A DNA stretch of 64,000 bases from Dyadobacter sp. MSC1_007 (GTDB taxonomy: Bacteria; Bacteroidota; Bacteroidia; Cytophagales; Spirosomataceae), in the NCBI RefSeq assembly GCF_023667495.1, contig NZ_JAMOZL010000004.1, forward strand, positions 434,001 through 498,000, in the 5' to 3' direction. This document shows positions 9,968 to 53,547 of the stretch, in pieces. The notes beneath the pieces were generated by a model. That model did no database searches, was not told where the DNA came from, and was given only the letters and a program-made list of their open reading frames with translations. Numbering within the stretch: the stretch's first letter is position 1; each line of letters opens with the position of its first letter. The translations under genes were made by a program, and so were the position numbers.

Positions 9968-10113
9968 AGTCGATCTAATATTGCGTCAATATGCTGTCCT
10001 TTGGCCTCCTCGCTCATACTTGACATTTCGTCTACGTATTTAGTATGAAAGTCGAGGAGCAATTTTAATAATCGCTCCTCGTCTTCCAGCTCTTCCCTTT
10101 CAGCATCAGACAT
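9937..10113 (-). CDS. Small acidic helical protein of unknown function
   Basis: A 58-residue acidic protein starting at ATG 10113 (MSDAEREELEDEERLLKLLL). The frame is open upstream to 10212, but that version would run close to the divergent DUF1080 gene and its extra residues look unlike the rest, so I prefer the short form. It is predicted to be almost fully helical and ends WEVKQLLKN. It is not recognised. It overlaps the following small gene by 31 bases, and acidic-then-basic small pairs of this kind can be toxin-antitoxin modules, but no family signature supports that here. Confidence 0.5.
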   Translation of the reverse strand: MSDAEREELEDEERLLKLLLDFHTKYVDEMSSMSEEAKGQHIDAILDRLWEVKQLLKN

Positions 10114-10239
10114 AAATTTAACCAATAAGCGATTAAAAGCACAGCCACGAAGGTAGAAAACCGCCTCACCCAGCTTCCATTTGTTGTGCATATGCCCTAT
10201 TTCGCTTATCAAATGGTATTACCCGCAAAAATCTCCTCC

Positions 10240-11133
10240 ATGGCTCGGAAAATTTTCCTTTTATTCTTAATCTCTTTACTATCCCTTTCAACCAAAGCAC
10301 AAAAACGTGCTGACAAAGAAGAGTGGCAATCGCTTTTCAATGGCAAGGACCTGACAGGTTGGGATATTAAAATAGCTGGTCATAAGGTCAATGACAATTA
10401 TAAAAATACCTTCATTGTTGAAGACAATATGATCCGCGTGAACTATAAAGAGTATGACAAGTTCACGACGGAATACGGCCATATGTATTACAACAAGCCA
10501 TTTTCACATTACAAAATTCGTTTACAATACCGCTTTACAGGCAACCAGGTACCAGGAGGCGCTTCATGGAATGTGCGGAACAGCGGTATTATGCTGCATT
10601 CACAATCCGCAGCAAGCCTGGGCATTGATCAGGACTTTCCGATCTCGCTTGAAATGCAATATCTCGGTGGCCTCAATGCAGGCGAACGTACCACCGGCAA
10701 TCTTTGCACGCCGGGCACTATCGTTGATATCGACGGAAAACTGGCTGAGGCCCATTGCATTAACTCTTCTTCCAAAACTTACAATGGCGACCAATGGGTG
10801 AATGCCGAAGCCATTGTTCTCGGCGACTCCATCGTTTATCATCTCATCGAAGGTGATACAGTGCTGGTGTTCACCAATCCAAAGATCGGTGGTGGATATG
10901 TGGGCAAAACCCATACTTTTAAACAGGGAAAAGTGGGGAATGAGGACGAATGGATCAAAAAAGACAATACTCCGCTCGGAAGCGGCTACATTGCACTGCA
11001 GGCCGAAAGCCATCCGATCGATTTCAGAAATATAGAACTGCTTAATCTCAAAGGCTGCATGGACCCGAAAGCGACGAATTACAAGTCGTATTACAAGGTC
11101 GCCGATAATTCTACATGTACGTTTAATAAGTAA
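10240..11133 (+). CDS. DUF1080 family secreted protein (3-keto-disaccharide hydrolase-like)
   Basis: A 297-residue exported protein. I choose ATG 10240 because it gives a signal peptide (MARKIFLLFLISLLSL, then STKAQ); the frame stays open to 10186. The mature part has the concanavalin-like DUF1080 fold: EWQSLFNGKDLTGWDIKI at the start, then DNMIRVNY, NSGIMLHSQ and the terminal SHPIDFRNIELLNL strand. DUF1080 proteins bind or hydrolyse sugars, and some act on 3-keto-glycosides. About 25 extra residues with two cysteines follow the domain. A terminator hairpin follows the gene. Confidence 0.88.
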   Translation: MARKIFLLFLISLLSLSTKAQKRADKEEWQSLFNGKDLTGWDIKIAGHKVNDNYKNTFIVEDNMIRVNYKEYDKFTTEYGHMYYNKPFSHYKIRLQYRFTGNQVPGGASWNVRNSGIMLHSQSAASLGIDQDFPISLEMQYLGGLNAGERTTGNLCTPGTIVDIDGKLAEAHCINSSSKTYNGDQWVNAEAIVLGDSIVYHLIEGDTVLVFTNPKIGGGYVGKTHTFKQGKVGNEDEWIKKDNTPLGSGYIALQAESHPIDFRNIELLNLKGCMDPKATNYKSYYKVADNSTCTFNK

Positions 11134-11147
11134 TCCGGATTCATAAA

Positions 11148-11178
11148 CCTGGCTTGACACCAAGCCAGGGGCTTTTTC
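11148..11178 (+). terminator. Rho-independent terminator after the DUF1080 gene
   Basis: A perfect 9-bp stem, CCTGGCTTG paired with CAAGCCAGG around a 4-base ACAC loop, is followed by GGGCTTTTT. It lies 15 bases after the stop codon. Confidence 0.8.
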
Positions 11179-11221
11179 CTATATTTGGTTGCATTCAATC
11201 CTGTATTAATCGAACCCAGAT

Positions 11222-12229
11222 ATGAGCATTCTTCAACGCATCAAACGCAAAACGGAATCCCTCAAAGACCAGTATTTCCCTCTTACGGAGTTTGACCCCG
11301 CCACGTTGCCCTGGATCGACAGGCCGAATCCGGATATCACTGGTTTCCTGCAAAAAAACCCGCCACGTTTCGATGTCCCTTACGACATGGCAGACAAGCT
11401 GAAAAGCTGGGAGAAAAATGGTTACGTGGTACTCGAGAATGTAATTCCTGAGGAGATGATCGACAAGTTTTGGGGCGATTTCAGGGAACTGGTTAGCAAT
11501 CCCGAAAAGTATGATCTTTCAGTCCGCATTGATCTGGAAGAGTTCAAGCCCAATCAGGAGCGTGATATCAAAGATTTTCCGAAAGAGGCACTTCAAGGTA
11601 AATATGTCAAGATTAACGACTTTCACAATTCTTCGGTTGCAGGAAAAAAGCTGATGACGCACCCGTCCATCGTTTCCTTCCTGGAAGCGATATTCAACCA
11701 GAAGGTCGTGGTGATGCAAAGCCTTGTATTTATGTACGGCAGCCAACAGCCTACGCATCAGGATTTTCCGTGGGTGACCGCCAAAATTCCCAGCCATCTG
11801 GCAGCCGCGTGGATTGCGCTGGAAGACATTAAGATCGATTCAGGACCGCTGTATTACTATATCGGGTCGCATAAGATGCCTAAATTCAATTTCGGAAGAG
11901 GTATTCTTTTCAAACCCGATTCGAACAAAACGCCTCTGGAATTCGCAGATTATCTTGACAAAACCGGAACAGGTCTGAACCTACCCAAGGAAACGTTGCT
12001 CATCAAAAAAGGGGACGTACTCATCTGGCACTCGGCCTTGGCTCACGGCGGTTCCATGATCACAAACCCCGATCAGACACGCAAATCGTTTGTCTGCCAT
12101 TATTCTACCGAACAAGCACTTCCCTATCACCGGAATTTTCCGGCGCAAGTGCCTGTGACGCAGGAATACAACGGCGTTTATATCTACAACAATCCACTCT
12201 TGCCACAATCCGAGGATGTATTGAAATGA
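11222..12229 (+). CDS. Phytanoyl-CoA dioxygenase (PhyH) family protein
   Basis: A 335-residue non-heme Fe(II)/2-oxoglutarate dioxygenase-like protein. It begins with about 60 residues of lead-in, then the PhyH core: KNGYVVLENVIPEEMIDKF, the metal-binding H-x-D in QPTHQDFPW, and the distal histidine in IWHSALAHGGSM, followed by R in DQTRKSFVCHY for 2-oxoglutarate binding. The full facial triad suggests an active hydroxylase. The substrate is unknown: family members act on fatty acyl-CoA, ectoine, mitomycin and others. It stands alone between two terminators. Confidence 0.88.
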   Translation: MSILQRIKRKTESLKDQYFPLTEFDPATLPWIDRPNPDITGFLQKNPPRFDVPYDMADKLKSWEKNGYVVLENVIPEEMIDKFWGDFRELVSNPEKYDLSVRIDLEEFKPNQERDIKDFPKEALQGKYVKINDFHNSSVAGKKLMTHPSIVSFLEAIFNQKVVVMQSLVFMYGSQQPTHQDFPWVTAKIPSHLAAAWIALEDIKIDSGPLYYYIGSHKMPKFNFGRGILFKPDSNKTPLEFADYLDKTGTGLNLPKETLLIKKGDVLIWHSALAHGGSMITNPDQTRKSFVCHYSTEQALPYHRNFPAQVPVTQEYNGVYIYNNPLLPQSEDVLK

Positions 12230-12252
12230 TGAAATAACCAATTGGTTTTTTA

Positions 12253-12260
12253 TATTTTTG
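12253..12260 (+). promoter_or_regulatory. -7 promoter box upstream of gldG
   Basis: TATTTTTG matches TAnnTTTG exactly and lies 77 bases before the gldG ATG at 12338. No convincing -33 box sits at the standard distance. The predicted start of transcription falls inside the hairpin that terminates the upstream gene. Confidence 0.4.
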
Positions 12261-12261
12261 C

Positions 12262-12304
12262 AAAAATGGACGTTCACGCAGCATCATCTGAATCGTCCAT
12301 TTTT
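12262..12304 (+). terminator. Hairpin between phyH-like gene and gldG
   Basis: A perfect 11-bp inverted repeat, AAAAATGGACG and CGTCCATTTTT, encloses a 21-base loop. It lies 32 bases after the upstream stop codon and has a T-rich right arm, so a rho-independent terminator is likely. The left arm directly abuts a -7 promoter box. Confidence 0.6.
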
Positions 12305-12337
12305 CGTTTTTAAATTTCGCTGTCTGCCATTGTGTTA

Positions 12338-13990
12338 ATGAAAAATTCGGTTCTTCGGTTTGTACTGCTCGTGGTTGTTTTGACCGGAATAAACTGGTTG
12401 GCGTCGTCCTTTTTTTTCAGACTAGACCTTACGGAGGATAAGCGTTACAGCATTTCGGATGCTACCAAGCAGCTTCTGGGCTCGTTGGACAAGGATGTTA
12501 TTGTGAATGTTTACCTGACAGGTGATTTTCCCGCAGGGTTCGAAAGACTTGAAAACGCGACCTGGGAAACTTTGGAAGAGTTTAAAAGTTACGCCAATGG
12601 TCGCCTGACCGTCAATTACTCCGACCCTTCCAATGCAACTTCCGAAGAGCAACGTCAAAAGCAATATCTCAGCCTCGTCGACAGGGGTTTGAACCCTACC
12701 AATGTATTTGCGAACGAAGATGGAAAGCGAACCGAAAAAATCATCTTCCCCGGGGTTATCGTTCAGGCTGACACCCTTTCCGTTCCCGTGCAGCTACTGA
12801 AAGGCAACAAAGCAAGCACTCCCGAAGAACAGCTTAATCAATCCTATGAAGGCGTCGAATTTGAAATTGCTTCGGCTATTCGTCTCCTGGCCAATCCTGC
12901 GCGGAAGAAAGTAGGTTTAGTTGTAAGTCATACGAAAATCCCACCCGCCCGACTAAGCGACCTCATTGCGACTATCCAACAGAGTTATGATGTCTTTTTG
13001 GACATGAACAATCCCGAATCTTATGCGGGCCTGGATGCTCTTGTCGTGATGAAGCCTGATAGCAGTTTTTCAGAGGCGGAAAAATATAAACTTGACCAAT
13101 ACGTGGTTGGGGGCGGACGCGCACTTTTTTTCGTAGACGGCGCGCGCGTGGACAGTGTGAGCCTGGACGGGAGTTATGCGCAACCGCTCGACCTGAATCT
13201 CACTGATCTGTTTTTCAAATGGGGAGTTCGGATCAATACAAATCTCGTTAAGGATTTAAATTGCGCTCAAATACTGCTCAATGTTGGGAATGTGGGTGAC
13301 AAACCTGACATCAGGCCAATGCCCTGGCGGTTTTTTCCGCTTCTTAACAATTTCGGCCCTCATACCATTACGCATAACATTAATGCGGTTTATTCCAGGT
13401 TTTTGAGCTCGATTGACACTGTGGGCGGCGCAACGGAGATTCACAAGACACCACTTTTGATGACCTCGCGTTACACACAAGTACTTAATGCTCCGGCCCT
13501 GGTCGGTTATAATGAAGCAAGAAAGGACCCTGATGCTTCTGAATATAATGCAGGCGTCAAACTGGCGGGCGTGTTACTGGAAGGCACGTTCACTTCGATG
13601 TTCCAGAACCGCATTTTACCTGGCGATCCCAGAGCTGCCGGTTTTAAGCAAAATGGCACCGGTGGAAAAGTTATAATCTGTTCTGACGGCGATTTTATTG
13701 TTAATGATTTTGACTATAAAAGAAATGCTCCCCTACCGCTCGGATATGACCGGGTTAGCAAGCAGACTTTCGGAAACAAAGATTTCGTATTGCATGCCCT
13801 TGATTACATGACTGATGCAAATGGATTGATCAATGCAAGGAACAAGCAGATTGCAATCCGGGCGCTCGACAAAATTGAGATCCAGGAAAATCGCAAGTTT
13901 TGGCAACTGCTTAACCTACTACTTCCCGTAGTACTAATTGGCATATTTGGGGGACTCAGATACTATCTAAGAATCAGAAAATTCGGTTGA
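12338..13990 (+). CDS. gldG: Gliding-associated ABC transporter auxiliary protein GldG
   Basis: A 550-residue membrane-anchored protein; ATG 12338 is used, although an in-frame GTG at 12332 is possible. An N-terminal membrane segment (VLRFVLLVVVLTGINWLASS) is followed by the typical FFFRLDLTEDKRYSIS motif, a large periplasmic ABC-transporter auxiliary domain, and a C-terminal membrane segment (LLLPVVLIGIFGGLRYYL). GldG works with GldA (ATPase) and GldF (permease) in Bacteroidota gliding, although it is not essential in all species. In many genomes gldF directly precedes it; here the upstream neighbour is a dioxygenase gene, and no gldF is in the window. Confidence 0.92.
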   Translation: MKNSVLRFVLLVVVLTGINWLASSFFFRLDLTEDKRYSISDATKQLLGSLDKDVIVNVYLTGDFPAGFERLENATWETLEEFKSYANGRLTVNYSDPSNATSEEQRQKQYLSLVDRGLNPTNVFANEDGKRTEKIIFPGVIVQADTLSVPVQLLKGNKASTPEEQLNQSYEGVEFEIASAIRLLANPARKKVGLVVSHTKIPPARLSDLIATIQQSYDVFLDMNNPESYAGLDALVVMKPDSSFSEAEKYKLDQYVVGGGRALFFVDGARVDSVSLDGSYAQPLDLNLTDLFFKWGVRINTNLVKDLNCAQILLNVGNVGDKPDIRPMPWRFFPLLNNFGPHTITHNINAVYSRFLSSIDTVGGATEIHKTPLLMTSRYTQVLNAPALVGYNEARKDPDASEYNAGVKLAGVLLEGTFTSMFQNRILPGDPRAAGFKQNGTGGKVIICSDGDFIVNDFDYKRNAPLPLGYDRVSKQTFGNKDFVLHALDYMTDANGLINARNKQIAIRALDKIEIQENRKFWQLLNLLLPVVLIGIFGGLRYYLRIRKFG

Positions 13991-14019
13991 CGAAAGGCTG
14001 GTTCATCGGTAATTTTTCA

Positions 14020-14027
14020 TACTTTTG
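14020..14027 (+). promoter_or_regulatory. -7 promoter box of dnaN
   Basis: TACTTTTG matches TAnnTTTG and lies 72 bases before the dnaN ATG. The -33 region is weak. Having its own promoter would separate dnaN expression from gldG. Confidence 0.5.
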
Positions 14028-14098
14028 TCCCCTACAAAATGATTTTTCGGAATCTTCCTACTTATAAATCTATCAACTAAACACTTACGTCACGAATT

Positions 14099-15223
14099 AT
14101 GAAGTTTGTCGTTTCGTCATCAGTTCTACTAAAACAGCTGTCTGCTATAAACGGTGTCGTTTCAACGAACCCAATTGTGCCAATACTTGAAAATTTCCTC
14201 CTGACACTGGAAGGAAATTCTCTGACGGTGACTGCCTCTGACTTACAGACGGTCATGATCACTGAGATTGAAGTAGAATCTTCCGAAAAAGGGGCCATAG
14301 CAATCCCAGCGAAACTGCTTCTGGACACCCTGCGCGGGCTTCCCGAACAACCTATTACTTTACAGGTCAATAGTGAGACTTTCGGAACCGAAATTATCTC
14401 CGACAATGGCCGGTATAAGTTATCTGGTGAAAACCCGATCGATTTCCCAAAAACACCCGCAGTTAACCGCGGTCAATCCGTCGATTTTTCATCTTCTGCA
14501 TTGGGTGCGGCGATATCTAATACGCTTTTTGCAACCAGTACCGACGATCTTCGCCCGGCGATGACAGGGGTATTTGTTCAGATGGGTGCCGAAAACGCAA
14601 CTTTCGTTGCTACTGATGGTCACAGATTGGTTCGTTACCGTCGCACGGATATCAAATCGGATATCGATACTTCGATGATCATCCAGCGCAAAGCCCTGAA
14701 CCTGCTGAAATCTTGCTTACCCTCTGACGATGTCCCCGTGAAAGCGGAGTTCACCTCGTCGAATGCATTTTTCAGTTTCGGTAATATTCGGATGATCTGC
14801 CGCCTCATCGACGAGCGCTTCCCGGATTACGAAAACGCAATTCCTACCAATAACCAGAATACACTCACGATTAACCGGATGGAAATCCTCAGTTCTCTGA
14901 GACGTATTTCCATTTACTCCAACAGGACCACACACCAGGTCCGGTTGAAAATGGCGTTGAACGATCTGGTTATTTCAGCAGAAGATCTCGACTATTCCAA
15001 CGAAGCCAACGAGCGTCTGATGTGCGAGTACAATGGCGACGATATGGAAATTGGTTTCAACGCAAAATTCCTGATCGAGGTGTTGGGTAACCTTTCCAGC
15101 AAAACAATCACCTTCGAACTTTCAGCGCCAAACCGCGCAGGTTTGATCATTCCGGTAGATCAGGAAGAGAATGAAGATATCCTTATGCTTGTAATGCCAG
15201 TTATGCTAAATACTTACGTGTAG
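14099..15223 (+). CDS. dnaN: DNA polymerase III beta subunit (sliding clamp)
   Basis: A 374-residue beta clamp. It begins MKFVVSSSVLLKQLSAINGV and shows the three-fold repeat of the family: NPIVPILENFLL in the first domain, FATSTDDLRPAMTGVFVQM and TDGHRLVRYR in the second, and NAKFLIEVLG with a terminal VMPVML strand in the third. The ring encircles DNA and tethers the replicative polymerase. It is not next to dnaA and no cluster of DnaA boxes was noticed, so this is probably not the replication origin. A strong terminator follows. Confidence 0.97.
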   Translation: MKFVVSSSVLLKQLSAINGVVSTNPIVPILENFLLTLEGNSLTVTASDLQTVMITEIEVESSEKGAIAIPAKLLLDTLRGLPEQPITLQVNSETFGTEIISDNGRYKLSGENPIDFPKTPAVNRGQSVDFSSSALGAAISNTLFATSTDDLRPAMTGVFVQMGAENATFVATDGHRLVRYRRTDIKSDIDTSMIIQRKALNLLKSCLPSDDVPVKAEFTSSNAFFSFGNIRMICRLIDERFPDYENAIPTNNQNTLTINRMEILSSLRRISIYSNRTTHQVRLKMALNDLVISAEDLDYSNEANERLMCEYNGDDMEIGFNAKFLIEVLGNLSSKTITFELSAPNRAGLIIPVDQEENEDILMLVMPVMLNTYV

Positions 15224-15248
15224 CATATTTCAAAATATAAGAATATTC

Positions 15249-15278
15249 AAAAGTCCGGCAGTAACTTGCCGGACTTTT
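15249..15278 (+). terminator. Rho-independent terminator after dnaN
   Basis: A perfect 12-bp stem, AAAAGTCCGGCA paired with TGCCGGACTTTT, with a 6-base loop, 25 bases after the dnaN stop. The right arm supplies the T-run. Confidence 0.85.
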
Positions 15279-15323
15279 GTGCTTTAATGCACTAGGAAAC
15301 AACCATTTAACTTATTTTTTGAT

Positions 15324-15401
15324 TTAACTACGAAAAAAATCGTAGTTAACACTTGCATCTACGATTTTTTTCGTAGACATTTGGTACGAAGATTATCGTA
15401 C
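15324..15401 (+). promoter_or_regulatory. Three BlaI-type operators over the blaI-M56 promoter
   Basis: Three inverted repeats with the same core, TACGA-N6-TCGTA, occur in 78 bases. IR1 (15324-15349) is TTAACTACGA-N6-TCGTAGTTAA, perfect over 10 bp per arm. IR2 (15358-15377) is TCTACGA-N6-TCGTAGA. IR3 (15384-15401) is GTACGA-N6-TCGTAC. A likely promoter overlaps them: -33 CTTG at 15352-15355 and -7 GACATTTG at 15376-15383, so IR2 fills the spacer and IR3 covers the expected start of transcription. The regulator encoded 14 bases downstream of IR3 is the obvious ligand (inference). Confidence 0.72.
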
Positions 15402-15414
15402 AAACAAAATCACC

Positions 15415-15789
15415 ATGTATATCAAGCCAACCGACTCTGAACTGGAAATTTTGAACTACCTATGGCAGGCAGGCCCCAGTACCGTCCGTTCTGTGCATGA
15501 CGCCCTTTCCGAAACTAAAGATGTGGGTTATACAACCACTCTTAAGCTGATGCAGATCATGCACGACAAGGGATTATTGTACCGCACGGAACAAGGAAGG
15601 TCACACATTTACGTTGCACTTCTCGGCAAGGAAGAGACCCAACAAAATCTCCTGGGAAAAATGGTTGAAACCGTTTTTCAGGGTTCCGCTGCGCAAATGG
15701 TCATGCAGGCATTAGGGAATCACTCGACTTCGAAAGAAGAATTGGATGAAATTCGTGAGTTATTAAATAACCTGGAAAACAATCGTTAG
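15415..15789 (+). CDS. BlaI/MecI/CopY family transcriptional repressor (module 1)
   Basis: A 124-residue winged-helix repressor. The N-terminal part, PTDSELEILNYLWQAGPSTV, then RSVHDAL and YTTTLKLMQIMHDKGLL, is the conserved DNA-binding domain; the C-terminal half carries the helical dimerisation and cleavage region. In the known systems a membrane M56 peptidase inactivates the repressor on sensing a signal such as a beta-lactam. The M56 gene follows two bases after the stop, so the two are one operon. There is no beta-lactamase nearby, so the signal and targets are open. It probably represses itself through the three operators upstream. Confidence 0.93.
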   Translation: MYIKPTDSELEILNYLWQAGPSTVRSVHDALSETKDVGYTTTLKLMQIMHDKGLLYRTEQGRSHIYVALLGKEETQQNLLGKMVETVFQGSAAQMVMQALGNHSTSKEELDEIRELLNNLENNR

Positions 15790-15791
15790 CC

Positions 15792-17651
15792 ATGAAATTA
15801 TTCTCAAACCTTTTCTCAGACTCCACAGTGTCTGCCTTCGGCTGGACATTGATCCATTCCATCTGGCAAGGAACGCTGCTTATGCTGCTTGCCGTCGCCG
15901 CATTTCATTTGCTTCGTAGACGGTCTGCCAATCTGAAATACCTAACTGGCGTCGGATTCTTGTTTGCTCAAATCCTGGTATCGGCGGGCACTTTCTTTTA
16001 TTATCAATTAAAAACAACAGCTGTCGCTACCTCCGGCAAATACCTCGCCAGTTATGTAGCATTGTCCGGCACCAATAATCTACGCACTGTTACACGCGAT
16101 CTTCCTTTGACATTTAAGGTCCAGATATGGCTCACCACCCATTTGCAGGAGCTGGTGGTTTGCTGGCTCATTGGCTCAGGTATTCTTCTGCTCAGGTTTG
16201 CGGGAGGCTGGATTTTTACAGAAAGACTTCGTTTCAAAGCCAAAATAGTAATGGATAAAGAATGGCGTGCTCGTTTTGGCGTGATTACCGCTAAAATGAA
16301 TATCTCCAAAGCCATCGAATTTCGCGAAACTGCAAAAATTGTGACGCCGATGGTGATTGGTGCGCTCAGCCCGGTCGTGCTGATACCGATTGGCTTATTG
16401 TCTGGCTTCTCGACTGCGCAGGTTGAAGCCATATTAGCCCATGAGCTTGCACACATCCGACGCAACGACTATTTGGTGAATATGCTGCAATCTTTTGTAG
16501 AAGTGATCTTTTTCTTTCATCCTGCCATCTGGTGGTTATCCGATAGGATCCGCGCCGAACGGGAGCATTGCTGCGATGATATTGCTCTGGCGGTTTGTGG
16601 AGATAAAATGTCGCTGGCTCATGCTTTGGTAAAAGTCGCCGAATGGCAGACTTCACCGGGACTGGCGATGGCTTTTGCTTCCAAAAAACCTTTGTTGTTA
16701 CATAGAGTTCAGCGAGTGTTAGGCCTTTCACCAAAGCCTGCCAGGACTTTTTCCAGTCTGCCGATTATCGTTTTTGCATTCGGACTGGCAATCGGAGTTT
16801 CGGCGTATGCAGTAGCGCAAAAGTCGGAAAAGGCGCGCGTGAAAAAGGCCACAAAGCAATTGGTTGAAAAACGGCACCCAAATAAATCCGAAATTCGCAT
16901 TGAAGAAGAAATCAATGAAGTGGCTGAAATTTCACCCATTGAAGAAGTTCAGGCAGAGATAAACGAAGTTGATTTTGACGATGTAGTGGAAATTGACTTT
17001 GGAAACGATTCCATACATGACGCAATTAATCGCAAAATACGAGCCCTTCAGGCGGAAATGGAGCCTTACCATCATCGAATGGAGGAATTGAATCTCGAAA
17101 TCGAAAAGCAACGGTTCGAAGTGGAACGTTTTCACAGAGAAATCGAGAAAATCGAATGGAAAAAGAATCGTGCGGCGGAACTACGCTCGGATCTGATGGA
17201 AAAGCGGTCAGTCCTTTTTGATCACGACGACAAACCCAACCAATCGAAACTAAGTGACAGCGAGCTGGACAAGCAACTGGCAGATTTCGAACAACAGATT
17301 AAAGCCCAGGAACAGATTATCTCAGAACTGAACGGGCAAATCGCTTCCGCACGGAAAGAGGCTTTCAAAGCCGAAGAACCGGTCAGGGCTCGTGAGCGTG
17401 AAATGGAAGAGCTGAATGAGAAAATTGATGAAATCGGTCGCAAAATGGGGCTCGAAACGTTGAGTTACCCGAGATCCGAAGGCCGGAGCGTGGCTCGTGT
17501 CGGCCGTGCCTCCCGCGGGGCCAGGTCCATCCGAAGCGTGCGCACCCCGCCGCTACCACCGCCTGCACCACTAGCCGCTCCTGCGAAGATCCGCAAGCCC
17601 ACCCCGGCTCCTGCTCCACCGAAGCCTCCAAAGGCGCCTAAAAAAGATTAA
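15792..17651 (+). CDS. M56 family (BlaR1-like) sensor metallopeptidase with coiled coil and Pro-rich tail
   Basis: A 619-residue membrane protein. Four hydrophobic segments are visible: about residues 15-40, 50-72, 115-140 and one near 325 (PIIVFAFGLAIGVSAYAVA). The zinc motif HELAH is at residues 217-221 on the segment before IRRNDYLVNML, with EREHCCDDIAL downstream. Instead of a penicillin-binding sensor domain the periplasmic part is a long charged coiled coil (about 370-560) ending in a Pro/Ala/Lys-rich tail (PPLPPPAPLAAPAK region). This architecture points to a signal other than beta-lactams (inference). It is co-transcribed with the BlaI-type repressor and ends at a bidirectional terminator. 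Confidence 0.9.
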   Translation: MKLFSNLFSDSTVSAFGWTLIHSIWQGTLLMLLAVAAFHLLRRRSANLKYLTGVGFLFAQILVSAGTFFYYQLKTTAVATSGKYLASYVALSGTNNLRTVTRDLPLTFKVQIWLTTHLQELVVCWLIGSGILLLRFAGGWIFTERLRFKAKIVMDKEWRARFGVITAKMNISKAIEFRETAKIVTPMVIGALSPVVLIPIGLLSGFSTAQVEAILAHELAHIRRNDYLVNMLQSFVEVIFFFHPAIWWLSDRIRAEREHCCDDIALAVCGDKMSLAHALVKVAEWQTSPGLAMAFASKKPLLLHRVQRVLGLSPKPARTFSSLPIIVFAFGLAIGVSAYAVAQKSEKARVKKATKQLVEKRHPNKSEIRIEEEINEVAEISPIEEVQAEINEVDFDDVVEIDFGNDSIHDAINRKIRALQAEMEPYHHRMEELNLEIEKQRFEVERFHREIEKIEWKKNRAAELRSDLMEKRSVLFDHDDKPNQSKLSDSELDKQLADFEQQIKAQEQIISELNGQIASARKEAFKAEEPVRAREREMEELNEKIDEIGRKMGLETLSYPRSEGRSVARVGRASRGARSIRSVRTPPLPPPAPLAAPAKIRKPTPAPAPPKPPKAPKKD

Positions 17652-17659
17652 GCATAAAA

Positions 17660-17692
17660 GAAAACGGGCTGTGAGATTCACAGCCCGTTTTC
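17660..17692. terminator. Bidirectional terminator between convergent genes
   Basis: A perfect 15-bp stem (GAAAACGGGCTGTGA with its complement) and a 3-base GAT loop lie between the M56 gene and the convergent reductase gene. T-runs flank both orientations, so it can serve both. Confidence 0.88.
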
Positions 17693-17704
17693 CTTTATCC
17701 TCTA

Positions 17705-18781
17705 TTATTCGACCTCGATCACCACATCATCACTCATGGGGTGGGTCACACAGGTTAGTACAAACCCTTCATTTACTTCCGCTTCCGAAAGTGCATCCTC
17801 CTCATCCATATGCACTTTCCCGGACACACACCTGCCCATACAAGCTGTACACATACCCGCCTGACATGAATAAGGCAGATCGATATCCATATTCAATGCC
17901 GCTTCAAGCACTGTTTCGTGCGGCTTCACCGGCAATTTGTATTCGGTACCTTCGTAAAAGAGTGTGATTTCCCTCGTTTTCAAGGCATCATCATCCTCTC
18001 CCTCTTCTTCCAATGTTACCTCGCCCGGTTTGGCCGCGGTAGCCGTCATAAAGCTCTCTTTCCTGATCTTGCTATCAGAAATACCTACAATAGATAGCGC
18101 CCGGTGCGATTCTTCCATCATATCTTCCGGTCCGCACAGGAAATACTCCGCTTCTTTTTTATCAAGCGTCGGAATGTTTTCCAGTATTTTCAAAAGATGG
18201 CTTTTGTTCAATCGACCTGTTTCGCCCCGCCAATCTTCTTCGGGCTGACTTAGGGTGTGGATCACTGTCAAACGGCTGCCGTACTTCATTTGCAGCGCTT
18301 CGAGTTTGTCTTTAAAAATGATTGTGCTTTCCTTACGACTTCCATAAATGAGGAAAACTTCGCTTTCCGGCTCCACCATCAAAATTGATTTCAAAATAGA
18401 AAACAATGGCGTAATCCCGCTTCCTGCGCCGATAAATACCACTTGCCTTGTCTGATCATCGGCTTGTTTTGGGAAGAAATGGCCCATTGGTTCCAGCGTT
18501 TCCAGCACATCTCCTTCTTTAATGCTATCCAAAAGAAGGTTCGACGCATAACCGCCTGGCACACGCTTAACCGTAATCGCCAGCGACACATCGGTATAAG
18601 GTGAGCTGGACATAGAGTAGGAACGCCTGATTTTTTTGTCTTCAAAAGGCAGCAACAACGTCAGGAACTGCCCGGGCCTGTATTGTACTACTTCATTAAT
18701 GGGATGCCAGAAATGTATCGTCGTAGCTTCATCGGTCTCTTTTTCGACTTCCTTGACTTTTAAAAAATAATATTTGCTCAT
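17705..18781 (-). CDS. PaaE-like flavin reductase with C-terminal 2Fe-2S ferredoxin domain
   Basis: A 358-residue electron-transfer protein. An FAD-binding barrel (about residues 1-105; RRSYSMSSSPYTD) is followed by an NAD(P)-binding domain (about 110-235; GAGSGITPLFSILKS, LIYGSR, YFLCGPEDM) and a plant-type ferredoxin domain (about 270-358). The cluster cysteines are in YSCQAGMCTACMGRC plus a distal one in VLTCVTHP. This matches the reductase of phenylacetyl-CoA epoxidase and related multi-component oxygenases. No paaABCD genes are in the window, so it may serve another oxygenase or desaturase. The start is ATG 18781; no obvious promoter was found in the 140-base upstream gap. Confidence 0.9.
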   Translation of the reverse strand: MSKYYFLKVKEVEKETDEATTIHFWHPINEVVQYRPGQFLTLLLPFEDKKIRRSYSMSSSPYTDVSLAITVKRVPGGYASNLLLDSIKEGDVLETLEPMGHFFPKQADDQTRQVVFIGAGSGITPLFSILKSILMVEPESEVFLIYGSRKESTIIFKDKLEALQMKYGSRLTVIHTLSQPEEDWRGETGRLNKSHLLKILENIPTLDKKEAEYFLCGPEDMMEESHRALSIVGISDSKIRKESFMTATAAKPGEVTLEEEGEDDDALKTREITLFYEGTEYKLPVKPHETVLEAALNMDIDLPYSCQAGMCTACMGRCVSGKVHMDEEDALSEAEVNEGFVLTCVTHPMSDDVVIEVE

Positions 18782-18872
18782 CGTTGGCGATCGGCAGTCG
18801 GCTGTCAGCGTCCGGCCTGTTATTTAAGGGATATTGGTGTGCAGGGCATAGTGTTGATCATTTTTACAACAC

Positions 18873-18905
18873 AAAAGCCTCACAGGTAACACCTATGAGG
18901 CTTTT
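18873..18905 (-). terminator. Terminator after the aminotransferase gene
   Basis: A 15-bp stem with one mismatch (AAAAGCCTCA arm against TGAGGCTTTT, extended by AGGT/ACCT) and a 3-base loop starts 17 bases after the aminotransferase stop on the minus strand. Confidence 0.7.
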
Positions 18906-18921
18906 ATGATTTCATTTCGGG

Positions 18922-20151
18922 CTATTTTAAAGTAGCTACCGCGTCTGCAATGCGTTGTACCGCCTCTCGTAGCGACTCATCAGCGGCTGCTGTTGAGATA
19001 CGAATGCATTTAGGCGCTCCAAATCCTGATCCAGCCACAGTCGAAACGTATGATTTGTTCAGTAGCCAGTTCGAAAAGTCGTCGGAGTCTTTGATAACCG
19101 TTTCTCCGTCTGATTTTCCAAAATAGTAGCTTACATCAGGGAATGCATAAAATGCGCCCTGCGGAACATTTACTTTAAATCCTGGAATTTCTTTCAACAA
19201 ACCTACAACCAGGTCACGGCGACGGTGGTAAGCTTTCGCCATTTCGATCGAAGGTTCGGTAGGACCGTTGAACGCTGCTGTTGCCGCTTTTTGAGCGATA
19301 GAGTTGGTTCCCGAAGTTACCTGACCCTGCAATTTTTCAACACCATCCGCGATCCATTTAGCGGCAGCGATGAATCCGATGCGCCAGCCGGTCATAGCAT
19401 AACCTTTTGCTACGCCATTCACTGTAATCACGCGGTCCTTCAATGCCGGAATCGATCCGATGCTGAAATGGCCTTCCTCTGTGAAGTTGATATATTCATA
19501 GATTTCGTCAGCCAGAACATAAACATCTTCATGTTTTTCAAGTACTGCCGCGATCTCTCTCAATTCTTTTTCTGAGTAAACAGCACCAGTCGGGTTGTTT
19601 GGAGAAGCATACATCACGATTTTGGTACGCGGCGTAATCGCTGCTTCGAGCTGTGCTGCCGTTACTTTGAAATCATTTTCAAAAGCTCCATCCACAATCA
19701 CCGATTTTCCTTCGGCAAGCTTCACCATTTCGGAGTAGCTAACCCAGTAAGGGGCAAAAATCACTACTTCGTCACCCGGGTTGATCAAAACCTGGATCAC
19801 GTTAGCCAGTGAATGCTTGGCTCCGGTAGAAACCACGATATTTTCCGGTTTCCAATCTATATTATTGTCGCGCTTCAGTTTGTCAGCAATTGCCTTTCGC
19901 AGATCAGGATAACCTGCTACCGGTGAGTAACCATGAAAGCCGTCATCGATGGCTTTCTTAGCAGCCTCGCAAATGTGTGCGGGCGTCTTGAAGTCCGGCT
20001 CTCCCACGCTCAGACTGATCACTTTATGGCCTTGGGCGGCCAATTCACGGGCCATTTTGGTCATCGCCAGCGTCGAAGATTCTTCGAGGGCGTTGATGCG
20101 GTCGGCCAACAACCGTGGTTCCACCTGGGTTTGCTCTGCTACTGCGGACAT
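18922..20151 (-). CDS. Class I pyridoxal-phosphate aminotransferase (aspartate aminotransferase type)
   Basis: A 409-residue fold-type I aminotransferase starting at ATG 20151 (MSAVAEQTQVEPRLLADRIN); the frame is open to 20199 but that would place the start nearer the promoter and adds an odd hydrophobic lead. Landmarks are SLSVGEPDFKTP, GYSPVAGYPDLRKAIA, the NNPTGAVYS motif, YVLADEIYE and the PLP lysine in VNGVAKGYAMTGWRIGF. The protein interconverts aspartate or a similar amino acid with its 2-oxo acid. Substrate choice (aspartate, prephenate or other) cannot be settled by eye. Confidence 0.93.
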   Translation of the reverse strand: MSAVAEQTQVEPRLLADRINALEESSTLAMTKMARELAAQGHKVISLSVGEPDFKTPAHICEAAKKAIDDGFHGYSPVAGYPDLRKAIADKLKRDNNIDWKPENIVVSTGAKHSLANVIQVLINPGDEVVIFAPYWVSYSEMVKLAEGKSVIVDGAFENDFKVTAAQLEAAITPRTKIVMYASPNNPTGAVYSEKELREIAAVLEKHEDVYVLADEIYEYINFTEEGHFSIGSIPALKDRVITVNGVAKGYAMTGWRIGFIAAAKWIADGVEKLQGQVTSGTNSIAQKAATAAFNGPTEPSIEMAKAYHRRRDLVVGLLKEIPGFKVNVPQGAFYAFPDVSYYFGKSDGETVIKDSDDFSNWLLNKSYVSTVAGSGFGAPKCIRISTAAADESLREAVQRIADAVATLK

Positions 20152-20207
20152 TGCAACAAATAATTTAGTTAAAGAAGGTACTGCTAACTGTATCAACAAA
20201 TTGCCCG

Positions 20208-20215
20208 CAAAGGTA
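20208..20215 (-). promoter_or_regulatory. -7 promoter box of the aminotransferase gene
   Basis: On the minus strand the bases read TACCTTTG, followed by CGGG, a match to TAnnTTTG. It lies 57 bases before the chosen ATG at 20151, which supports that start. The -33 box is unclear. Confidence 0.5.
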
Positions 20216-20333
20216 CGGGTTTTTTAGAAGTTGTATTGTATTATGACAAGAAAGATTTATTGGCAGGCAGTAATTAGCCGTCGGGAAGATTCACCCGATC
20301 GACTGTCGGGCATTAACTATGATATTTGTAGCT

Positions 20334-21860
20334 ATGGACACACCGATCACCATTGACGAAATCATTTTTCTGGCCAATGTGCCCGAAAATCTGCACGCAT
20401 CTTTTCTCCGCGTCGCGAACGGACTGCATGAGCGGGCCAAATATCCTAAGGACAAGGTCTTTCTGATGCTTGCCAAAATGCTGAATGACCCTAAGAAATA
20501 TGCATTTTCAAAAAATAAGGTCACTAACCTTGCCAAAACAGTCTACGACCTTAAAAAGAGTGGTGCCACAATTTCTTTGACTGAGGACGGGAAAGAGCTA
20601 CTCCTCAATGAAGAAACCGCATTGACCCTCGTAGAAAAAGAACCGCAGTCCAAAAACACTTTCAACTTGCGAGAGGAAAAGCTGCATTATGCCATTTTCG
20701 GCAAGGAACATATTGAGGAAGGGGCCTTACTGCAAATGGAAACTGCCGTTAGTTTGCCGGTTTCTGTCGCTGGTGCATTGATGCCAGACGCACATCAGGG
20801 CTACGGCTTGCCTATTGGCGGCGTGCTTGCGACAGAAGCTGATAAAGTGATTCCCTATGCCGTTGGGGTAGACATTGCCTGCCGGATGTGCATGTCGGTT
20901 TTCGATATTTCTCCCGATTATCTCAAACGTGAGCCGCATTTACTGAAAAAGATCCTGACCGAAAACACCAAATTCGGAATGGGCGGAGAAACGTCGCGGA
21001 AATACGACGAAAGTGTCATGGATAAGCCCGAATGGGAAGCAACCAAGTTGATCCGCGGCCTGAAAGACAAGGCTTACCGGCAATTGGGAACGTCCGGGAC
21101 CGGTAACCATTTCGTGGAATGGGGAATTGTAGAAGTATTTGAAAATGATGAATTGCTAAACTTACCCAAAGGCGAATACCTTTCGTTGCTATCGCATTCA
21201 GGATCACGGGGATTCGGTGGCAATGTTGCTAATTATTATTCCAAACTCGCCATGCAGAAAACTGTTCTTCCAAAGCAGGCTGCACACCTTGCGTGGCTCG
21301 ACCTGAACACCGGTGAAGGACAAGAATACTGGATCGGAATGAATCTCGCTGGTGATTATGCTTCGGCCAATCACCACGAAATCCACAATAAAATCGCGCG
21401 GGAGCTACGAGAAAAACCACTCAGGATCATTGAAAACCATCACAACTTCGCCTGGAAAGAAACGCTTGCCGATGGCAGTGAAGCAATCGTCCACCGGAAG
21501 GGTGCTACTCCTGCGGGCGTCGATGAACTGGGCATTATCCCGGGTTCAATGAGTCAGCCGGGCTACGTAATACGGGGAAAAGGGAATGCAGAATCATTAA
21601 GTTCGGCCTCACACGGGGCGGGACGCGTGATGTCCCGAACGAAGGCATTTACAAACACGACACGCAGCCAAATGAACAAAATTTTGCAGGATGCAGGCAT
21701 TCAGCTCATCGGCGGCGACCTTGATGAATCACCAATGGTCTATAAAAACATTGACGACGTGATCGCTGCGCAATCCGAGTTGGTAACAGTACTAGCCAAA
21801 TTTTCGCCTAAGATTGTGAGGATGGCGGATGCGAATAGGAAAGAAGGGAGGGAGGATTGA
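20334..21860 (+). CDS. rtcB: RtcB family RNA ligase
   Basis: A 508-residue RtcB; I use ATG 20334 (MDTPITIDEIIFLANVP), with an alternative in-frame ATG at 20319. RtcB joins 2',3'-cyclic phosphate or 3'-phosphate RNA ends to 5'-hydroxyl ends using GTP and Mn2+. Key motifs are DAHQGYGLPIGGV, the metal-binding Cys in VGVDIACRM, GTGNHFVEWG, HSGSRGFG, ENHHNFAWKE, the RKGATPAG loop and the histidine in SASHGAGRVMSR. An extra N-terminal region of about 110 residues, not part of the usual core, precedes the ligase domain. No archease or RtcA gene is adjacent. Confidence 0.93.
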   Translation: MDTPITIDEIIFLANVPENLHASFLRVANGLHERAKYPKDKVFLMLAKMLNDPKKYAFSKNKVTNLAKTVYDLKKSGATISLTEDGKELLLNEETALTLVEKEPQSKNTFNLREEKLHYAIFGKEHIEEGALLQMETAVSLPVSVAGALMPDAHQGYGLPIGGVLATEADKVIPYAVGVDIACRMCMSVFDISPDYLKREPHLLKKILTENTKFGMGGETSRKYDESVMDKPEWEATKLIRGLKDKAYRQLGTSGTGNHFVEWGIVEVFENDELLNLPKGEYLSLLSHSGSRGFGGNVANYYSKLAMQKTVLPKQAAHLAWLDLNTGEGQEYWIGMNLAGDYASANHHEIHNKIARELREKPLRIIENHHNFAWKETLADGSEAIVHRKGATPAGVDELGIIPGSMSQPGYVIRGKGNAESLSSASHGAGRVMSRTKAFTNTTRSQMNKILQDAGIQLIGGDLDESPMVYKNIDDVIAAQSELVTVLAKFSPKIVRMADANRKEGRED

Positions 21861-21898
21861 AGAAAATAATTCACTATCTTTCTTAAAATGTAATCGGT

Positions 21899-22114
21899 AT
21901 GAATGCGCTGAGACTCATTGAGAAGCCCGAAAATGGCGAATTGAAGATTTCTTTGCCAAAGTCGTTTACAGACGACTTGGTAGAAGTAATCATTCTGCCT
22001 TTAACTCAACACGAAATAAATACAGAAGCCAGATTAAAAATTGCTCAACAATACCTCAAAAGATCAAAACCAACCAATTTTGACTTAGGAGATTTGGACC
22101 CGCATGAGCAATAA
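21899..22114 (+). CDS. Antitoxin-like small protein
   Basis: A 71-residue protein: MNALRLIEKPENGELKISLP, then a strand-rich segment (DDLVEVIILPL) and a helical, charged C-terminus ending DLDPHEQ. It resembles small Bacteroidota antitoxins that precede PIN-domain toxins, but I cannot name a family with certainty. An ATG at 22104 overlaps its stop region, where a toxin would be expected to start, yet that frame ends after 18 codons. It thus looks like an orphan antitoxin whose toxin was lost (inference). Confidence 0.55.
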   Translation: MNALRLIEKPENGELKISLPKSFTDDLVEVIILPLTQHEINTEARLKIAQQYLKRSKPTNFDLGDLDPHEQ

Positions 22115-53178: not shown

Positions 53179-53547
53179 ATGGAAGAATTGAACAGCTCGG
53201 AAGAAAGTATCATGAGGATCCTGTGGGACCTTGGCGAAGGTGTCGTTCATGACATAATTGAGAAACTGCCAGCTCCCAAACCACCCTACACGACGGTATC
53301 CTCGGTGGTGAGGCTGCTGGAAAAAAAGGGATTTATCGACCATAAGGCGTATGGCAAAACGCACGTCTACTTCCCGACTATCAGTAAGGAAGAATATGCC
53401 CGAAAATCGTTTTCCAATCTGGTTAAGCACTATTTTGAAGGCTCGCCAAAGAACATCGTTTCTTTTATAGTCCAGGAAAATGCGCTGAAACCGGACGAAG
53501 TGGACGAATTAAAACAACTCATCGACTCTTACTACACTAAATCCTGA
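53179..53547 (+). CDS. BlaI/MecI/CopY family transcriptional repressor (module 2)
   Basis: A 122-residue winged-helix repressor. I use ATG 53179 (MEELNSSEESIMRILWDLGE); an in-frame TTG lies two codons earlier inside the -7 box and is unlikely. The helix-turn-helix segment YTTVSSVVRLLEKKGFI is clear, followed by the dimerisation part (VKHYFEGSPKNIVSFIV). It is expected to bind the palindrome between its own promoter boxes and to be relieved by cleavage through the M56 peptidase, whose gene starts four bases after the stop. The signal is unknown. Confidence 0.93.
   Translation: MEELNSSEESIMRILWDLGEGVVHDIIEKLPAPKPPYTTVSSVVRLLEKKGFIDHKAYGKTHVYFPTISKEEYARKSFSNLVKHYFEGSPKNIVSFIVQENALKPDEVDELKQLIDSYYTKS

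Follow-up and report, generated by a model that had tools for sequence, protein, structure and literature searches.

The dyad array and its promoter

Does an array of inverted repeats in front of a blaI-type gene serve as the operator of the repressor encoded immediately downstream, or does it have another binder or another role? The window, meaning the whole 64,000-nucleotide stretch analyzed here, contains three perfect dyads of the form TACGA-N6-TCGTA. Direct reading of the sequence places all of them between blaI and the end of the upstream gene, identified by Pfam as dnaN, with start-to-start distances of 31 (IR1 to IR2) and 25 (IR2 to IR3). The features of the region are listed below.

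15248..15279, plus strand: probable terminator hairpin between dnaN and the array (-22 kcal/mol, z -7.7)
15329-15344, no strand: IR1, TACGAAAAAAATCGTA, perfect dyad upstream of the -33 element
15353..15355, plus strand: predicted -33 element TTG, inside CTTG at 15352-15355, conserved 5' of IR2
15360-15375, no strand: IR2, TACGATTTTTTTCGTA, perfect dyad in the -33/-7 spacer
15376..15383, plus strand: predicted -7 element GACATTTG, family consensus nAnnTTTG
15385-15400, no strand: IR3, TACGAAGATTATCGTA, perfect dyad spanning the predicted start of transcription
15415..15789, plus strand: blaI-type repressor gene (124 aa, PF03965), predicted recognition helix at residues 39-51
15792..17651, plus strand: M56 membrane metalloprotease gene (619 aa, HELAH motif, PF05569)

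Three perfect matches in 64 kb compare with 0.03 expected, and none of 100 shuffled sequences reached three. When up to two mismatches were allowed, the window held 16 sites versus 19.25 expected; as this relaxed motif shows no excess, the signal is confined to the perfect sites. The three perfect inverted repeats and their spacing, first described in the initial annotation, are therefore confirmed, and the array is real.

Promoters of Bacteroidota carry -33 and -7 elements, with the start of transcription expected shortly after TTTG, and on the basis of this consensus we take the TTG upstream of IR2 to be the -33 element. The gap between TTG and the GACATTTG octamer is 20 bp, 16 of which are filled by IR2; IR3 spans 2 to 17 bp downstream of TTTG, and the blaI start codon follows at 15415. 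Among 46 promoters taken for alignment, 45 could be anchored on IR2, and in these the TTG sits at -7 to -5 from IR2 (T 100%, T 84%, G 84%), with the -7 octamer retaining its A in 96%, TTT in 96-100% and G in 76%. Across the 45 promoters the TTG, both dyads and nAnnTTTG are fixed and the flanks drift, so the conserved order TTG-IR2-nAnnTTTG-IR3 bears out the earlier placement of IR2 in the -33/-7 spacer and IR3 at the predicted start. This layout agrees with a Bacteroidota promoter in which occupancy of IR2 would obstruct the spacer and occupancy of IR3 the start. In some species of another genus (g28) no perfect IR2 is found, and there the promoter remains bracketed by IR1 and IR3, which are 54-56 bp from each other.

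The repressor and its M56 partner

The protein encoded by blaI matches the Penicillinase_R domain PF03965 with 98.7 bits versus a cut-off of 22.6. Its AlphaFold2 model, from which the recognition helix was located, has a mean pLDDT of 73.1, with values of 88-94 in blocks over residues 11-60 and low values in the C-terminal half. In structure comparison, the top seven rows were MecI and BlaI chains, aligned across 87-88 residues with Z 12.4-13.1, followed by 2g9w (Z 11.7) and then by other winged-helix families, none of them above 10.8. The model is offset from MecI by three residues, such that residue 40 corresponds to MecI position 43. The cleavage pair N101-F102 of MecI and BlaI aligns to Q98-A99 in the window repressor, and cleavage at this position thus cannot be assumed. 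The 124-residue protein contains no cysteine and hence no CxC metal motif, and it scores 54.2 bits on the CopY_TcrY model versus a cut-off of 121.95; the TACANNTGTA operator core of BlaI, MecI and CopY occurs in none of the three sites of the window. A second blaI paralogue lies elsewhere in the window (53194-53526; G000:C4:487194-487526, locus L002), with an AACTA dyad that has a five-base spacer.

The partner protein matches PF05569 with 107.3 bits versus a cut-off of 31, and the gene after it is convergent and encodes reductase domains. Among the clade I loci whose downstream sequence was long enough, the gene next to blaI is of the M56 type with an HExxH motif in 81 of 87 (14 more loci were too short); three of the remaining six have HExxH in some frame further on, and in two (L036 and L122) the next gene encodes a long hydrophobic protein with no HExxH in the stretch examined. 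At locus L031 (G064:C3:156221-159589), from a genome of the same genus, a reductase gene directly follows blaI and the M56 gene is missing there, with M56 matches elsewhere in that genome at most 33% identical. One perfect site is left in its array, which has no perfect IR3 and carries a mismatch in IR1. Decay of the array beside loss of M56 fits a joint function, as a single case.

Taken with the conservation and the correspondence between helix and half-site described below, we consider it very probable that the downstream BlaI uses the three dyads as operators, through which it would repress its own blaI-M56 promoter. With one BlaI dimer lying across the -33/-7 spacer on IR2 and another over the transcription start on IR3, RNA polymerase would be excluded from the promoter; IR1 would be a further site just upstream, and the sites may act together. 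The M56 protease would inactivate BlaI on a signal, relieving its own operon and a few other promoters.

The combination of BlaI (PF03965) with an M56 protein (PF05569) is also how the beta-lactam resistance switches of Staphylococcus and Bacillus are built, and we judge it unlikely that this module is a switch of that type. Within the 619 residues of the M56 protein no penicillin-binding or transpeptidase domain was found, Pfam matching only PF05569 and PF01435, and blaR1_generic reached 92.8 bits versus a cut-off of 400. The NCBIfam models for BlaR1, MecI, BlaI and CopY were all under their cut-offs on the blaI-M56 pair, no beta-lactamase was recognized by eye among the open reading frames of 10000-22000, and the further targets that were found are outer-membrane beta-barrel genes.

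Conservation and probable recognition of the sites

Protein similarity, and in no case the motif, decided which loci entered the conservation counts; those retrieved by motif (L061-L107 and L226-L244) were excluded, and 58 further rows of the family and phylum listings were picked by hand for identity spread, again not by motif. Exact duplicates were dropped before counting (9 in one pass, 5 in the larger table), as were L010, L170 and L171, which had no BlaI match; L131 shows one site once its start codon is reset, the initial start having lain 43 residues too far upstream. The family search covered 150 genomes, 143 with a match, and in the best 44 places, window included, we found three perfect dyads in 28, two in 15 and one in a single case. 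A pair exactly 25 bp apart is present in 40 of these 44; the four others have an IR3 shortened by deletion (L022), a 24-bp spacing (L053), one mismatch in IR2 (L033) or come from the genome without M56 (L031). A perfect IR1 stands 30-32 bp before IR2 in 30 of the 44 and is absent from 14, which indicates that IR1 is not required everywhere. The phylum search covered 296 genomes, also with 143 matched, from which 30 loci were taken (the window, two of the same family and 27 of other families). Orthologous modules lacking the repeats had earlier been named as an outcome that would count against the operator reading, and the opposite was seen: at least one perfect site was present at all 44 family loci and at all 29 phylum-search loci besides the window, some loci outside the family having just one.

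Grouped by helix type, repressors with YTTxLK have at least one TACGA-N6-TCGTA in 105 of 105 distinct upstream regions, versus an average of 0.01 of 105 in shuffles. Over all five-mers and spacers of 0-12, TACGA/TCGTA at N6 is the commonest pair in these regions, and the spacings between dyads peak at 25 and 31. The three-fold array of the window is not universal, with three sites in 42 of the 105 regions, two in 44 and one in 19. A stricter motif, TACGAANNNNTTCGTA, has a match in 58 of 81 family genomes, although the window's own array is not matched by it; among 75 listed sites out of a larger number, hand comparison with the places from the family search puts 63 at blaI loci, 6 at the g28 second target described below and 6 elsewhere.

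Paralogous blaI genes provide the main evidence on the identity of the binder. Their dyads mostly keep the same 16-bp frame; the half-site is TAAGA in 7 of 7 YMST paralogues, AACTA in 13 of 13 with YNTxST and TACTA in 8 of 10 with YTTxMT, and the Y[SAT]ST class has an asymmetric TACGA/TAGGA site in 19 of 22. Exceptions to the frame are L006 (TACGA) and L002 (AACTA), each with five central bases, and no symmetric five-base dyad with N6 was found at L005, L189 and L190. Because the half-site follows the helix type at paralogous blaI promoters, the neighboring BlaI is indicated as the binder. That some other DNA-binding protein uses the sites appears very improbable: one perfect site does stand 26 bp before an Xre/RES toxin-antitoxin pair, and antitoxins of this type bind DNA, but the site recurs at 29 of 29 blaI loci taken from the phylum search, and the altered half-sites at paralogous promoters match the helix type of their own repressor.

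Least credible is a reading of the repeats as hairpin structures in RNA or DNA (a terminator, attenuator or cruciform) instead of protein sites. We disfavor it even though IR1 and IR2 are reverse complements able to pair into an 18-bp stem around a 13-base loop (15328-15376) and the 91-base stretch folds at -30 kcal/mol (z -8.3), since both repeats lie upstream of the predicted start and would be absent from that transcript, and since exact complementarity of the N6 cores is confined to 11 of 28 triple arrays (9 of 13 where BlaI is >80% identical, 2 of 15 among the rest), the other 17 having 1 to 4 mismatched bases beside an unchanged TACGA/TCGTA.

With BlaI as the probable binder, we compiled 235 distinct loci into a table of helix residues and operators, including 80 added via alignment of eight second-clade proteins; the pass before these were added looked cleaner for a recognition code. 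For 121 YTT-LK proteins the site was TACGA/TACGA in 108, TACGA/TAGGA in 8 and none in 5. The 48 YTS proteins had the asymmetric site in 38, a symmetric one in 4, another in 1 and none in 5, and YSS proteins had the asymmetric site in 28 of 28. On a quick tree, built from 120 columns and 169 of the 235 rows and with many of its forks left open, the asymmetric site tracks the second clade. Met40 occurs with TAAGA in 9 of 9, all of one clade, and Ala40-Ser41 with TAGGA in 2 of 2, which are not sisters on this weak tree; a third Ala protein, L291 (YATT), did not match the pattern. The tree requires at least 18 operator changes and at least 12 changes of residue 40. Two second-clade YTTTLK proteins (L303 and L317) have TACGT-N6-ACGTA upstream of blaI in place of TACGA.

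A simple code of residues 40-41 was partly rejected, as the sites do not distinguish Thr from Ser at position 40. Given this overlap and the 8 asymmetric and 5 unmatched sites among the 121 YTT-LK proteins, we treat the code as a hypothesis and not as a result. We tentatively suggest, with considerable doubt, that residue 40, which follows the conserved tyrosine opening the recognition helix, determines the third base of the half-site (C with Thr, A with Met, G with Ala) in a fixed 16-bp frame of Bacteroidota BlaI, and that TACGA-type pairs are an envelope-sensing control of outer-membrane beta-barrel proteins and not of antibiotic resistance. If the code is true, operators and targets of many uncharacterized BlaI-M56 pairs would be predictable from sequence. 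The natural helix-operator pairs form a small set in which it is directly testable, and we see this as the most valuable extension of the work.

Further candidate targets

The 7.45-Mb genome of the window contains 10 perfect sites, three of them in the array, versus 8 matches to a backwards control pattern. Among the seven outside the array, five are inside open reading frames, one precedes a paralogous blaI and one an Xre/RES pair. A large regulon in this genome was accordingly rejected, and with non-array sites at the control level the regulon looks tiny. Of the regulon proposed to be findable by this motif, the promoters of the paralogous blaI and of the toxin-antitoxin pair remain. At the first (L043, G000:C5:319500-325000), the paralogous blaI has the same operator and is followed on the same strand by M56 and OMP_b-brl_3 genes, and the BlaI proteins of the window and of L043 may cross-regulate. 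At the second, a perfect site that may be a chance match or a functional one (L041:2182-2197; G000:C1:74181-74196) lies 26 bp before the Xre-type antitoxin and RES toxin genes.

A scan of 13 genomes of the genus gave 6 to 13 perfect sites per genome versus 3 to 10 for the control. One recurrent extra site, TACGAATGATTTCGTA, is inside an open reading frame (aspartokinase by eye), and we attributed its recurrence to coding conservation. In genus g28, 7 of 11 genomes have a second pair of sites; all seven pairs precede a reading frame that contains MKNLLLV close to its beginning, and OMP_b-brl_3 was found in all four of the seven proteins run through Pfam. An outer-membrane beta-barrel gene is thus the predicted second target in this genus. 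The window's genome encodes a relative of it, 71% identical, with no site of up to two mismatches in the 420 bp before the gene, which indicates that this outer-membrane target is not general. The link to beta-barrel genes in one genus offers a lead on BlaR-like proteins that lack a penicillin sensor.

Among the top-ranked titles of a literature search that covered few subscription papers, we recognized no study on BlaI operators in Bacteroidota. Passages of PMC12578637, PMC12584681, PMC4757040 and PMC2658668 yielded no usable information about operators, nor did PMC8265638 return any passage on a term search. The locus adds a candidate operator, strongly conserved, for a regulator pair that is common in Bacteroidota.

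A close parallel in operator geometry is CopY. Passages of PMC7253601 give the CopR-CopY operator as RNYKACANNTGTMRNY, 16 bp long, and the window dyad has the same 16-bp frame of 5-mer, N6 and 5-mer. The same passages describe an inner ACANNTGT that CopY requires, whereas the window type fixes the outer TACGA and leaves the inner six bases A/T-rich and variable. The half-site had been described as different from the usual one; it does fix other bases, outer and not inner, but it is less foreign than supposed, its 16-bp dyad being in register with RNYKACANNTGTMRNY. A known frame is thus kept while other bases are fixed. In CopY, two operators are proposed to cover the -35 element and occlude polymerase, and pneumococcal CopY shows no cooperative binding despite close operators (passages of PMC7253601). 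CopY repressors also carry a C-terminal CxC metal motif, in contrast to the cysteine-free window repressor.

In Bacillus licheniformis, the dimeric repressor BlaI has operators OP1-OP3 and a BlaR1 partner, as given in passages of PMC3305447, and by our reading the OP1 oligonucleotide shown there fits the same 16-bp frame with the center CATATG; like the CopY operator, it has its inner bases fixed. Those operators lie between the two operons of a divergon, serve a beta-lactamase and have another half-site (PMC3305447, in part), whereas all three sites of the window are in one promoter and the window partner, unlike BlaR1, has no detected penicillin-binding domain. Passages of PMC8457756 report that BlaI_0696 and BlaI_1845 of Clostridium thermocellum have two ordered dyads at their own promoter and very small regulons, with DAP-seq and gel-shift support. 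Their half-sites, GTCTAT/GACTAT in two dyads, differ from those here, AACTA and TACTA being the nearest classes (PMC8457756, in part). The best sequence match with a solved structure is BlaI of Mycobacterium tuberculosis (Rv1846c, PDB 2g9w; E 1.3e-11), which also has YTT at the start of the helix. Since the frame is common to CopY and OP1 and multiple operators are known, the array belongs to a known kind, in which its specificity and layout are new: it is ordinary in kind and unusual in its depth of conservation and its specificity.
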